Shown here: piece after piece, positions 15,310 through 49,230 of the stretch
Position numbering within the stretch: position 1 is the first letter of the stretch
Layout: each line of letters opens with the position of its first letter
NCBI GenBank assembly: GCA_958295975.1
Contig: OY282446.1
Location: 2,085,289-2,149,288 of the forward strand
DNA length: 64,000 nt
Direction: 5' to 3'
Source of the DNA: Tepidiformaceae bacterium
GTDB lineage: Bacteria; Chloroflexota; Dehalococcoidia; Tepidiformales; Tepidiformaceae
Notes under the pieces: generated by a model
The model's database searches: none
The model's input: the letters and a program-made list of their open reading frames with translations, nothing else
Told to the model about the DNA's origin: nothing
Made by a program: the position numbers and the translations under genes

Positions 15310-16161
15310 ATGCCCGACTACGAGAACATTCGCTACTCCGTCAGCGACCGCATCGCGCGCATCACGCTCAACCGCCCGGAGAAGCTGAACGCGCTCAACC
15401 GCGACCTGCGCGGGGAGTTCACGGACGCCCTGCGCGTGGCCGAGCGCGACGACGACGTGACCGTCATCCTCGTGAACGGCGCGGGGCGCGCCTTCTGCGC
15501 GGGCTACGACATCACGCCCAACCAGCCCGCCGACGCGCGCGCCGGCATCCTCGTCTCGGAGAAGCACTTTGACGGCTGGACCGACCCCTTCGCCCGCAGC
15601 TGCGTGCGCGACTGGATGACCATCTGGGACCTGCTCAAGCCCGTGGTCGTCATGGTCCACGGCTACTGCCTGGCGGGCGGCTCCGAGCTCATGTCCATGT
15701 GCGACATCGCCTTCGCCTCCGACGACTGCAAGATCGGCTACCCGCCCATGCGCGGCATGACCACGCCGGACGTGATCTACTTCCCCTGGAAGCTGCAGAT
15801 GGGGCGCGCCAAGTACCTGCAGCTCAGCGGCAACAGCGTCACCGGCAAGCAGGCGGCGGAGTGGGGCTGGATCGCGAAGAGCTTCCCCGCGGAGTCGCTG
15901 GAGGAGGAGGTGATGCACGAGGTGCGCGCCCTCGCCAGCATCGCGCCCGACCTGCTGGCGGCGAACAAGCTCGCCATCAACCAGACCTACGAGATCATGG
16001 GCATCCGCACGGCCCTGAACACGGGGCCGCAGTGGCACGCCCTCAGCGGGCGCATGCGGCCGGGCGCGGGCGAGTTCGGGCGCATCTCCAACGAGCACGG
16101 GCTGAAGGCCGCCCTCTCCTGGCGCGACGCCCCCTTCAACCGCGAGGGCTTCAGCCCGTAG
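15310..16161 (+). CDS. enoyl-CoA hydratase/isomerase family protein
   Basis: 283 aa crotonase fold. Start is supported by AGGAGG 7 bases ahead. Features: ITLNRPEKLNALNRDLRGEF, an oxyanion-hole region GAGRAFCAGYD, and the VVMVHGYCLAGGSELMSMCD segment. One catalytic Glu seems to be replaced in this stretch (CLAGGSELMSMCDIAFAS), so hydratase chemistry is not certain; dehydratase, decarboxylase or isomerase roles are possible. It lies 43 bases after the fused CoA-transferase on the same strand. The heptamer array starts two bases after its TAG. Confidence 0.85.
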   Translation: MPDYENIRYSVSDRIARITLNRPEKLNALNRDLRGEFTDALRVAERDDDVTVILVNGAGRAFCAGYDITPNQPADARAGILVSEKHFDGWTDPFARSCVRDWMTIWDLLKPVVVMVHGYCLAGGSELMSMCDIAFASDDCKIGYPPMRGMTTPDVIYFPWKLQMGRAKYLQLSGNSVTGKQAAEWGWIAKSFPAESLEEEVMHEVRALASIAPDLLAANKLAINQTYEIMGIRTALNTGPQWHALSGRMRPGAGEFGRISNEHGLKAALSWRDAPFNREGFSP

Positions 16162-16163
16162 AC

Positions 16164-16604
16164 GGTGGCCGGTGGCCGGTGGTTGGTGGCCGGTGGTTGG
16201 TGGCCGGTGGTTGGTGGCCGGTGGTTGGTGGCCGGTGGTTGGTGGCCGGTGGTTGGTGGCCGGTGGTTGGTGGCCGGTGGTTGGTGGCCGGTGGTTGGTG
16301 GCCGGTGGTTGGTGGCCGGTGGTTGGTGGCCGGTGGTTGGTGGCCGGTGGTTGGTGGCCGGTGGTTGGTGGCCGGTGGTTGGTGGCCGGTGGTTGGTGGC
16401 CGGTGGTTGGTGGCCGGTGGTTGGTGGCCGGTGGTTGGTGGCCGGTGGTTGGTGGCCGGTGGTTGGTGGCCGGTGGTTGGTGGCCGGTGGTTGGTGGCCG
16501 GTGGTTGGTGGCCGGTGGTTGGTGGCCGGTGGTTGGTGGCCGGTGGTTGGTGGCCGGTGGTTGGTGGCCGGTGGTTGGTGGCCGGTGGTTGGTGGCCGGT
16601 GGCC
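16164..16604. repeat. heptamer tandem array, 63 units of GGTGGCC / GGTGGTT
   Basis: 441 bases of perfectly repeated 7-mers. Two kinds, A = GGTGGCC and B = GGTGGTT, alternate strictly (14-base period) from the third unit to the end. The array opens with A-A and closes with A-A, making 33 A and 30 B units with no other variant in the reading. It begins two bases after the hydratase stop and ends 20 bases before the ATG of the four-helix-bundle gene. Since 7 is not divisible by 3 the array is open in all six frames, so no protein is inferred from it. Perfect identity implies recent expansion or homogenisation. Confidence 0.95.
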
Positions 16605-16616
16605 GGATGGTATGCT
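16589..16616 (+). promoter_or_regulatory. candidate promoter for the four-helix-bundle gene
   Basis: TTGGTG at 16589-16594, formed by the last B-A junction of the array, is 16 bases before TATGCT at 16611-16616, preceded by TGG (extended -10 like). The ATG follows 8 bases after the -10, implying a leaderless mRNA. Only two of three key -35 bases fit, so this is a weak inference. Confidence 0.3.
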
Positions 16617-16624
16617 GGTGCTCC

Positions 16625-17026
16625 ATGAGCTCGCCACGCAGTTATCGGGATCTGGATGTCTGGCAACGGGCAATGGAGCTGGCTGAGGCAGTCTGGCGAA
16701 TCTCGGCGGGCTTTCCGGCGGGAGAGCAATTCGGGATGACGAGCCAGGTGCGGCGGGCGGCGACGTCGATACCCGCGAACATCGCGGAGGGGGCGGGGCG
16801 GAACGGGACGAGGGAGTTCCTGCAATTCGTCGGAATCGCGAGCGGCTCGCTGGCCGAGACGGAGACGTTTCTCTTGCTGGCGGAGCGGCTGGGACTGGCG
16901 CCCCGGGCGCAGGTGCGAGAGGCCCTTGAGCAGGCGGCTATTGTCGGGCGAATGCTCAACGGGTTGAAGCGCTCACTGGAGTCCAGGCTCCCGACGCCAA
17001 GGTCCGCTCCCCGCACCAACCACTGA
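16625..17026 (+). CDS. four-helix-bundle protein (23S rRNA IVS type)
   Basis: 133 aa beginning YRDLDVWQRAMELAEAVWRI, the signature of the TIGR02436 four-helix-bundle family, and containing SIPANIAEGAGRNGTREFLQ and GSLAETETFL. Members are known as intervening-sequence proteins of 23S rRNA or free-standing genes, and relatives (Avd) are accessory factors of diversity-generating retroelements. No reverse transcriptase or rRNA is near. I chose the ATG at 16625; an in-frame ATG is 18 bases upstream. The last codons and TGA stop lie within the inverted heptamer array at 17018-17086, so the gene is enclosed by the two arrays. Confidence 0.9.
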   Translation: MSSPRSYRDLDVWQRAMELAEAVWRISAGFPAGEQFGMTSQVRRAATSIPANIAEGAGRNGTREFLQFVGIASGSLAETETFLLLAERLGLAPRAQVREALEQAAIVGRMLNGLKRSLESRLPTPRSAPRTNH

Positions 17027-17086
17027 TCACCGGCCACTGGCCACCGACCACCGACCACCGACCACCGTCACCGATCACCGGCGACC
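17018..17086. repeat. degenerate inverted heptamer array
   Basis: On the plus strand: AACCACT, GATCACC, GGCCACT, GGCCACC, three GACCACC, GTCACC (six bases), GATCACC, GGCGACC. GGCCACC is the reverse complement of GGTGGCC, so this is the left array's unit in inverted orientation but diverged. The stop codon of the four-helix-bundle gene (17024-17026) and the stop of the convergent SnoaL-like gene (17068-17070) both fall inside it. Together with the left array it brackets a unit of about 0.9 kb. Confidence 0.8.
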
Positions 17087-17469
17087 GGCCCCGACTGATG
17101 GTGCGCGAGCCGCCATTCGCCATCCTCGCGCACGAACACGTTGGTGGCGTAGAGGGGCGCGCCGGAGACCACTTCGCGGCAGAGCACGAGGGCGGCGCCC
17201 TCGCCGAGCAGGGAGGCGCTGGCGCCGCCGCCCACGATGCGCGGCTGGTTCGGGTTGGCCAGGATCGCGGCCCAGCTTTCGAGCACGGCCTCGCGCCCGC
17301 TCAGCAGCGTCCAGCCGGGATGGAGGCAGGTGACGGGCGCGCGCCGCGCCCAGACGGCGTCCATCGCCTCCGCGTCGGCGTTGGCGAGGGCGCGGTAGAA
17401 CGCCTCGTTGGCGGCGAGCGCCGCGCCCTCCGCCCCGGCGTCGGTGACACTGGTTCTCTCGCTGGGCAT
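17068..17469 (-). CDS. SnoaL/ketosteroid-isomerase-like (NTF2 fold) protein
   Basis: 133 aa. The pattern ANEAFYRALANADAEAMDAVWA, VTCLHPGWTLLSGREAVLESW and the closing EDGEWRLAHHQSGP is typical of the SnoaL_3 type of NTF2-like proteins, of unknown substrate. The final residues PVAGDR and the stop are encoded by the inverted heptamer array, so the array either replaced or defines the gene's 3' end. The start is the ATG at 17469, only 4 bases after the lipoprotein gene's stop, so the two are probably one transcript. Confidence 0.75.
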   Translation of the reverse strand: MPSERTSVTDAGAEGAALAANEAFYRALANADAEAMDAVWARRAPVTCLHPGWTLLSGREAVLESWAAILANPNQPRIVGGGASASLLGEGAALVLCREVVSGAPLYATNVFVREDGEWRLAHHQSGPVAGDR

Positions 17470-47214: not shown

Positions 47215-49230
47215 ATGCGCGCACGCTGGCTGCGGTTCGGGCTGATGCTGGGCTTGGCGCTGGGCGTGGTGGCGCTGGCGCTGGCCGCGGGCATGTCGCG
47301 GGGCGGGGAATCGGTGGGGGCGCAAGGCGCGACGCTGTCGCCCGTGGCCACGCCCGCCGCCACGGCCACGCCCGCCGCCACGGCCACGCCCGCCGCCACG
47401 GCCACGCCCGCCGCCACGGCCACGCCCGCCGCCACGGCCACGCCCGCCGCCACGGCCACGGCCGCCACCACCGCCACGACGGAGACGCCCGCGACGGCCC
47501 TCCCCGCGAATCCGCCGACCTGCACGGCCACGACGCTGGGGGGCACGCGGGCGGCGAACGCGGCGCTGGCGGCGGACTGCGACACGCTGCTGGCAATCGA
47601 GAGCACGCTGGCGGGCACGGCCACGCTGAACTGGGCCCCCACGCTGGCGCTCACCTCGTGGGAGGGGATCACGGTCGGGGGGACGCCGAAGCGGGTGACG
47701 CGGCTGACCTTGATCGACAAGGGGCTGACGGGGAGCCTCCCCACGCAACTGGCGAATCTGACGGCGCTGACGGGGGTGTACCTCTACGACAACCGGCTGA
47801 CGGGGAGCATCCCCACGCAGCTGGGGAACCTGACGGCGCTGACGGGGCTGTGCCTGGACCGAAACGCGCTGAGCGGGGCGATTCCGACGCAGCTGGGGAG
47901 CCTGACGGGGCTGACGTCGCTGTGCGTGGGGGCGAACGGGCTGACGGGCGGCATCCCCACGCAGCTGGGGAACCTGACCGCGCTGCGGACGCTGCGGTTG
48001 GCGGCGAACAAGCTGACAGGCGGCATCCCGACGCAACTGGGGAACCTGACGGAGCTGCGGACGCTGAGCCTGTGGGGGAACAAGCTGTCCGGGGCGATTC
48101 CGACGCAACTCGGGGGATTGACGAAGCTGACGGCGTTCTACCTGGGGCAGAACGGGTTGACGGGGAGCATCCCCACGCAGTTGGGCGGGCTAACGGAGGT
48201 GAAGGGGCTGGAGCTGCACTCGAACGCCCTGACGGGGGCGATTCCGTCGGAGCTGGGGAGCCTGACGAAGCTGACACGGCTACGGCTGGAGAACAACCGG
48301 CTGAGCGGGAGCATCCCGGTGCAGCTGGGGAGCCTGACGGCGCTGACGCAACTGCTGCTGTGGGGCAACCAGCTGACGGGGAGCATCCCGACGGGCTTGG
48401 GGAGTCTGACGAAGCTGACGCAGCTGGAGTTGGAGAACAACCGGCTGACGGGGGCGATCCCGGCGGAGCTGGGGAGCCTGACCGCGCTCGTGACGCTGAA
48501 GCTGGCGGGCAACTCCCTCACGGGCTGCGTGCCGAACGCGCTGGCGGGGGTCACGACGCATGACCTTACGCGCGCCAGCGTGGCCTTCTGTCCCGCGCCC
48601 GCGCCGGTGCTGACGGTGCTCGCCGACGGCGTGGCGGGCGTGCTCATTCTGGAGTGGACGAGCACCGCGGCAGGAGTCACACGCTGGCAGTACCGCACTC
48701 GGGGACCGATTTGGGAGAGCGTTACCTCTCCAGCATGGGGAGCATGGACGAACATCCCCGGCAGTAATGCGGGCACGCGGAACTATCGACTCACGGGGTT
48801 GAGTAGCTACAGAGGTTACGACATAGAGGTCCGTGCTTGGGCAGCAGCTAGGGCGGGTAGAGCCTCTATCACATTTGAGGCTACCACGCTCCACATTGGC
48901 TCCGATAGCATCCCTGAGATGTATCCGAGACAGACTGTTGTTGGCGGGAAATCGTACCGTATCGGTGGCTTGGCCTATGTTATTGACGTTCCGGCGAGTA
49001 TTCGTGTTGTCGCAGGAAGTGGAGGGTACGGTTGGAATACCGGACTCACAGTGCAAGTGACTGACATAGGCAGTGGGAATTACTTCGTGATAGATGGGGA
49101 CACGGGAGAGATTTTGGAGAACAGCAGAGGCATTGCATCGGGAGCCATTGGATCTTCGGAGAGTTCGGCTACCGCACCGTTTGATCAGATGGTAGCATCC
49201 TTGCGATGGGTTGCGGTACCAACGCCATGA
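47215..49230 (+). CDS. secreted plant-type leucine-rich-repeat protein
   Basis: 671 aa from the ATG at 47215 (GGGAGAGG 8 bases ahead; the GTG at 47206 lies in the SD). Signal peptide at about 8-30; a Thr/Ala/Pro stalk of six TPAATA repeats at about 45-80; an N-cap (TTLGGTRAANAALAADCDTL); then 12 LRRs of 24 residues with consensus LTGSIPTQLGNLTALT. The closing cap is GCVPNALAG. After it comes an FN3-like segment (LEWTSTAAGVTRWQYRTRGP) and an unassigned AT-rich-coded region that ends FDQMVAS plus ten residues. Probably a surface or secreted binding protein. The stop overlaps the metzincin gene's ATG (ATGA). Confidence 0.88.
   Translation: MRARWLRFGLMLGLALGVVALALAAGMSRGGESVGAQGATLSPVATPAATATPAATATPAATATPAATATPAATATPAATATAATTATTETPATALPANPPTCTATTLGGTRAANAALAADCDTLLAIESTLAGTATLNWAPTLALTSWEGITVGGTPKRVTRLTLIDKGLTGSLPTQLANLTALTGVYLYDNRLTGSIPTQLGNLTALTGLCLDRNALSGAIPTQLGSLTGLTSLCVGANGLTGGIPTQLGNLTALRTLRLAANKLTGGIPTQLGNLTELRTLSLWGNKLSGAIPTQLGGLTKLTAFYLGQNGLTGSIPTQLGGLTEVKGLELHSNALTGAIPSELGSLTKLTRLRLENNRLSGSIPVQLGSLTALTQLLLWGNQLTGSIPTGLGSLTKLTQLELENNRLTGAIPAELGSLTALVTLKLAGNSLTGCVPNALAGVTTHDLTRASVAFCPAPAPVLTVLADGVAGVLILEWTSTAAGVTRWQYRTRGPIWESVTSPAWGAWTNIPGSNAGTRNYRLTGLSSYRGYDIEVRAWAAARAGRASITFEATTLHIGSDSIPEMYPRQTVVGGKSYRIGGLAYVIDVPASIRVVAGSGGYGWNTGLTVQVTDIGSGNYFVIDGDTGEILENSRGIASGAIGSSESSATAPFDQMVASLRWVAVPTP
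47347..47454. repeat. six 18-base tandem repeats coding a TPAATA stalk
   Basis: Six perfect copies of an 18-base unit (GCCACGCCCGCCGCCACG) followed by a partial one. It encodes a Thr/Ala/Pro spacer behind the signal peptide. Copy number probably varies between strains without frameshifts, since 18 is a multiple of 3. Confidence 0.9.
49181..49200 (+). repeat. 20-base element shared with 31860-31879 (copy 2)
   Basis: TTGATCAGATGGTAGCATCC at the 3' end of the LRR gene, one base different from the copy at 31860. It codes DQMVAS in the same position relative to the end of an LRR protein. Confidence 0.5.

Follow-up and report, generated by a model that had tools for sequence, protein, structure and literature searches.

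The window (the whole 64,000-nt stretch of DNA analysed here) contains a gene for a four-helix-bundle (4HB) protein enclosed by inverted arrays of heptamers, and comparison with other members of the family suggests that this locus is probably one copy of a pan-bacterial group of minimal mobile elements in which a 4HB gene lies between heptamer-array ends. Each element would span approximately 0.45-1 kb and comprise a single 4HB gene and two inverted arrays of about five heptamers. Both the enclosure by inverted arrays and the comparative loci favour a mobile cassette, so that the guess at one in the original prediction was right in outline.

The cassette in the window and its protein

The cassette lies between two protein-coding genes and has the following parts:

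15310..16161, plus strand: enoyl-CoA hydratase gene, the left neighbour (PF00378, 1e-36; orthologous junctions in sister genomes)
16164..16604, plus strand: left arm, 63 exact heptamers with a GGTGG core and a CC or TT spacer (TRF score 866)
16625..17026, plus strand: 4HB gene (IVP/S23/TIGR02436), 133 aa (PF05635, E = 1e-36; TIGR02436, 1e-35)
17014..17095, minus strand: right arm, degenerate inverted heptamers of CCACCGA type (TRF period 7, 76% match)
17068..17469, minus strand: SnoaL-like gene, the right neighbour, convergent (PF13474, 5e-20; start chosen as the ATG at 17467-17469)

The hydratase gene ends in a TAG stop codon at 16159-16161 and the left array begins two bases later, with two copies of GGTGGCC followed by a strict alternation of GGTGGTT and GGTGGCC and by two copies of GGTGGCC as its end. 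The sequence and TRF together bear out the predicted 63 exact units, their alternation, the doubled ends and the two-base offset from the stop. The CC/TT alternation implies that a 14-bp dimer was amplified, and active expansion of the array is plausible. The right arm includes the stop codons of the 4HB gene (17024-17026) and the SnoaL-like gene (17068-17070, minus strand), as had been described for a diverged, inverted array holding both stops. The proposal that the last array units provide a promoter -35 is unsupported, because a consensus scan found no sigma-70-like promoter.

The 4HB gene stands alone between the arms, and the element contains no transposase gene of the kind that marks an insertion sequence. 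Its terminal inverted repeats around an S23p ORF are those of a 23S rRNA IVS, but the cassette sits between the hydratase and SnoaL genes, outside 23S rRNA, and an Rfam search of the cassette returned zero matches. Elsewhere in the window, tandem 72-bp repeats at 47696-48524 apparently code for plant-like leucine-rich repeats (GxIPxQLGNLTxL type).

Membership of the IVS/Avd-like four-helix-bundle family, as first assigned, was confirmed by PF05635 (125.8 bits against a curated cut-off of 33.8), by TIGR02436 (122 against 24) and by an AF2 model with a pLDDT of 95, for which Foldseek found 2gsc (TM 0.83), 2rld, the DGR ribonucleoproteins 8ube/8ub7 and, more weakly, Avd (4dwl, TM 0.71). The model has the four-helix fold of the solved members, and on this weaker match the Avd of the Bordetella phage retroelement is predicted to have a fold in common with it. 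The 2gsc entry contains five chains, and we take the five chains per crystal entry of the solved 4HB relatives to be a pentamer.

Heptamer arrays across the four-helix-bundle family

The generality of the association was measured across 227 distinct PF05635 loci from approximately 18 phyla, a non-random sample in which members near the search motif are over-represented, drawn from relatives, 80 named loci from many phyla, 31 from IMG/VR contigs and additional copies in 30 genomes. Only periods 7 and 14 exceeded background in the 200-nt flanks. A period-7 array (score >=9 in 250 nt) was present on at least one side of 200 loci (88%), compared with 6.7% of background windows, and on both sides of 143, while approximately 12% of the 4HB copies had no array by this measure. 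Offsets other than 7 gave 2-16% of loci overall (for example, 5, 24, 6, 8 and 9 of the 227 at control offsets 5, 8, 10, 11 and 13, respectively). Concordant inverted arrays, with the same unit on both sides, were found at 107 of the 227 loci (47%) versus 0 of 820 ordinary genes, which were taken from random 20-kb stretches of other genomes, the host genome and one sister genome and measured identically. At the stricter score of >=14, arrays on either side occurred at 65% of 4HB loci versus 2-6% of ordinary genes, and a further sample of 60 loci contained arrays in 48 and concordant arrays in 22. The predicted link between the protein family and arrays is thus real and extends far beyond the Chloroflexota; the unit, however, need not be GGTGGYC and is element-specific.

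Solo arrays were also common, often with units unlike those of nearby 4HB arms. 4HB copies were found on plasmids too, a search for phage carriage gave zero matches in 50,697 phage records, and a 23S rRNA motif search over the 227 loci gave no match. On the Pseudanabaena galeata plasmid pPg_01 (L518; NZ_CP112875.1 44768-48118), cas6 and cas4 are separated by a 4HB gene that has long heptamer arrays, and insertions of this cas6/cas4 type may be the reason why '23S rRNA IVP' appears among new CRISPR associations (PMC10910872).

The arms share a common anatomy. They are 4-5 units long (median 4.9), start at the upstream stop codon (median -2 nt) and finish at the next start codon (median 3.5 nt); by the same approximate, ORF-based gene calls, 128 of 208 cassettes lie between a same-direction gene pair, with 32 antisense to such a pair, and convergent and divergent placements also occur. 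Each heptamer consists of a conserved 5-nt core and a free 2-nt spacer (entropy of 0.35-0.40 versus 1.16 and 1.31 bits, with positions rotated so that the variable columns come last), and the two most variable columns were adjacent in 66 of 117 cases versus 39 expected, a result that is independent of rotation. The cores are polarised relative to the gene, with RGY in phase in 211 of 333 arrays versus 63 for its reverse complement RCY, and TNRGY cores numbering 119 versus 9 for the reverse complement. The window array, with its GGTGG core and CC/TT spacers, fits this pattern. G-rich arrays as the common factor were rejected, as the cores vary widely. Upstream of the 4HB gene at L490, TCAGC cores recur at a period of approximately 9 rather than 7, apparently a longer-spacer variant.

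Spacers matched between the two arms at chance (43 versus 39.4 expected) and arm mismatches included 364 G-U versus 399 A-C, with no G-U excess; the arm duplex energy was -95 kcal/mol for own arms versus -74 kcal/mol for arms of different loci. Because spacers do not match and G-U is not in excess, a pair of inverted arrays built from a directional motif describes the arms better than a single perfect hairpin does.

Protein and unit also vary together. The median cosine between arms of one locus was 0.70 in inverted orientation, 0.06 in direct orientation and 0.06 against other loci, and different 4HB copies within one genome carry different units. Proteins >60% identical across phyla tend to have common units, and protein identity correlated with unit similarity over 5,198 cross-phylum pairs (rho 0.50, versus a maximum of 0.27 when permuted within phyla). 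The 4HB tree required 69 phylum changes, versus a minimum of 17 and 108 when shuffled, and misbinned metagenome contigs may account for part of these. By this comparison, protein and arms are shown to be co-inherited across phyla.

Among 76 loci with a TNRGY-like core, a few residues (numbered as in L041) covaried with core bases. At residue 103, E accompanies A as base 3, and R or S accompanies G. Base 5 covaried with residues 2 and 59: where it is C these are K/R and D/E, and where it is T they are Q/H and small residues. In phylogenetically independent pairs, residue 59 had changed in 9 of 11 pairs contrasting at base 5 versus 6 of 30 with the same core (p = 5e-4), residue 109 in 10 of 15 contrasting at base 2 versus 3 of 26 (p = 5e-4) and residue 103 in 5 of 7 contrasting at base 3 versus 5 of 29 (p = 0.01). 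These p-values fail correction for 118 columns x three bases, so the residue-base code is no more than suggestive. Another four loci, all of one distant subfamily and with a usable core, fit at residue 103 and not at 2 or 59, and for the few later loci the code was judged by eye only. This covariation is the basis on which the 4HB protein may be suggested to recognise the heptamer arrays.

Gain and loss of cassettes in the host and its relatives

The host genome (2.4 Mb, single contig) encodes two PF05635 genes, the second of which lies between pheS and pheT within inverted heptamer arms of unit TTGGCTG. Arrays of the GGTGNYC family occur at several other intergenic sites of the host, most of them inverted pairs that enclose no 4HB gene. 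The outcome named beforehand as telling against the prediction, arrays lying mostly away from such genes, was thus found literally for GGTGNYC in the host genome, but not for the general pattern. Together with the different unit of the second cassette, these arrays imply that the gene is linked to the architecture and not to one exact heptamer. Neither RVT_1 (PF00078 reverse transcriptase), expected of a DGR, nor Y1_Tnp (PF01797 transposase), expected of a REP/RAYT system, was found in the single-contig host genome, so that neither a PF00078 reverse transcriptase nor a RAYT-like transposase is needed for the presence of the cassette there. Either enzyme as a required helper was rejected on these grounds and because 4HB presence did not track with them across 40 relatives.

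PF05635 genes are patchily distributed, being present in 21 of 40 relatives and, across the phylum, in 92 of 301 genomes, with up to 15 copies. In G004, a solo GGCTGTT array (L270; G004:C2:238402-238425) occurs in a genome with no PF05635 gene detected. At L037 (2470-2905; G000:C1:2190979-2191399), a short gene, HigA-like helix-turn-helix by eye, lies alone within inverted GGTGNYC arms from which 4HB is absent; this may be a cargo cassette, with another gene between inverted arms. A similar cargo reading of L035 was dropped, as a complete inverted pair already makes up its left side.

Orthologous junctions differ in what they carry. Between pheS and pheT, some genomes of one genus have a bare junction (TAGCGCCATGAAA is one example), others have a full cassette, and one has a single arm without the gene. 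The comparison of empty sites that had been proposed for the window's own site revealed an empty inverted pair in sister genomes; in one other (L211, in G002), the gap between the hydratase gene and its right neighbour is filled by other DNA, with neither 4HB nor an empty pair. The fad operon was compared in four Pedobacter genomes and one Mucilaginibacter, in which both junctions are bare. Among the Pedobacter operons there are cassettes with three types of unit, an inverted pair that is empty, a site with a single arm and a decayed copy (pseudogene) beside an intact one, with cassette copies at adjacent junctions, and homology between two cassettes that are 84% alike at different fad junctions stops at the arms. 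In the fad operon of Pedobacter sp. Leaf170 (L413), arms are filled inside by another repeat, of CGTCATTGCGAGGCACGAAGCAATCTT type. No target-site duplication was readable at the pheS-pheT or fad empty sites, which are too short and diverged.

Cassettes are, on these comparisons, gained and lost as a discrete unit, with a direction that is not polarised at every site, and they are shown by comparison to come and go at stop/start junctions, apparently leaving solo arrays behind. Many orthologous cassettes remain at fixed sites, which indicates that movement is not frequent everywhere.

Mechanism, alternatives and relation to known systems

In the mechanism that we propose, the 4HB protein, which to judge from its relatives may be a pentamer, would read the directional 5-nt core with roughly one subunit per heptamer. 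With approximately five heptamers per arm and five chains per entry, two rings could bridge the two arms, and host enzymes would transfer the bridged element to another intercistronic gap by copying or cutting. In the window copy, a 14-bp dimer with CC/TT spacers may have grown to 63 units by slippage or unequal recombination, an expansion that would have arisen in the inverted pair that sister species carry empty. That these cassettes are a categorically new kind of mobile element, with a non-enzymatic, ring-forming 4HB protein, a residue-to-base code, bridged inverted arrays and movement by host enzymes, and with 23S rRNA IVSs as a special case and many intergenic heptamer arrays as its footprints, is put forward tentatively, as a possibility somewhat short of even.

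The main rival is an RNA-level mechanism as in rRNA IVSs, which we consider unlikely. Here the transcribed arms would fold into a hairpin that RNase III removes or that draws the adjacent stop and start codons close, with 4HB binding RNA as Avd does. Such a mechanism would suit arms that abut stop and start codons, the 128:32 ratio of sense to antisense placement in flanking operons and the lower duplex energy of own arms, and the 23S IVS, whose protein belongs to the 4HB family, has terminal inverted repeats, is excised by RNase III and in Coxiella carries heptamers before the ORF (PMC4990558). However, G-U pairs do not exceed A-C among the mismatches, spacers are non-complementary between arms, convergent, divergent and antisense placements occur and the window cassette has no Rfam match; on the first two of these grounds, a purely RNA hairpin was rejected. 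In a second, improbable alternative, 4HB acts as a regulator whose operators are its own arms, with the solo arrays elsewhere as its regulon. The core and spacer grammar and the residue-base covariation are as expected of such a regulator, and tandem heptamer pairs in Geobacter metallireducens have been proposed as sites of a global regulator (PMC2700814), but 4HB copies of one genome differ in unit, arrays run from stop codon to next start rather than marking promoters, and solo arrays persist in G004, where PF05635 was undetected. A third alternative, likewise improbable, is that the arrays arise by ordinary slippage at intergenic hot spots where a 4HB gene settles, its protein being unrelated to them. 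In its favour are the 14-bp alternation, which resembles slippage, the general abundance of intergenic heptamer arrays (PMC6344855) and the 16% of control gaps near 4HB loci that contain an array, which is above random gaps. Against it, concordant inverted arrays are absent from all 820 control genes, the unit tracks the protein across phyla, and slippage would not be expected to yield a conserved core, a free spacer and a fixed polarity.

A mobile cassette, the preferred reading, has its closest relative in the 23S rRNA IVS with an S23p ORF (Leptospira, Coxiella), a suspected selfish element with a common protein family, a single ORF and terminal inverted repeats; unlike these, the cassettes examined sit between protein genes and have polarised 5+2 arrays as arms, with unpaired spacers. 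Avd, a DGR accessory protein, has a fold in common with 4HB, but the host genome differs in being without RVT_1. REP/REPIN sequences with RAYT (Y1) similarly have inverted short repeats flanking a gene, and dispersed gene-less copies, but the host lacks Y1_Tnp and the cassette repeats differ from REP palindromes in being tandem heptamers.

Solo arrays resembling those described here, tandem and mostly intergenic heptamers with some inverted pairs, have been reported before. The scattered distribution of TAACTGA arrays in the Beggiatoaceae was taken as a sign of horizontal transmission, 'but no mechanism is evident' (PMC4679880). TCAGT+TA, a core and spacer present in 4HB arms (L162), reads TAACTGA on the opposite strand. 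Inverted GGGAATC pairs are described in Xanthomonas (PMC4692102) and tandem heptanucleotide sites in Geobacter (PMC2700814), and the available parts of these three reports do not tie a gene family to the arrays. A repeat survey found heptamers to be the most abundant intergenic tandem repeat, with no hint, according to its authors, of what they do (PMC6344855). Within the accessible open-access literature, heptamer arrays are not linked to the 4HB family in general; heptamers beside an ORF of this family were noted there once before, in Coxiella, whose 23S IVS has GACAGAT heptamers, three to four of them depending on the strain, just before the S23p ORF (PMC4990558).

The association provides a candidate agent for unexplained heptamer arrays, in the form of an element that has a single gene and encloses neither a transposase nor a reverse transcriptase, with a unit that is readable from sequence and a protein structurally related to Avd. 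Its general interest lies in the connection that it makes between a large protein family with no assigned function and a large class of unexplained repeats. 4HB cassettes would account for part of the abundance of intergenic 7-letter repeats in bacteria, and the S23/IVP family would gain a role and a reason for its presence inside unrelated operons, such as cas6-cas4.
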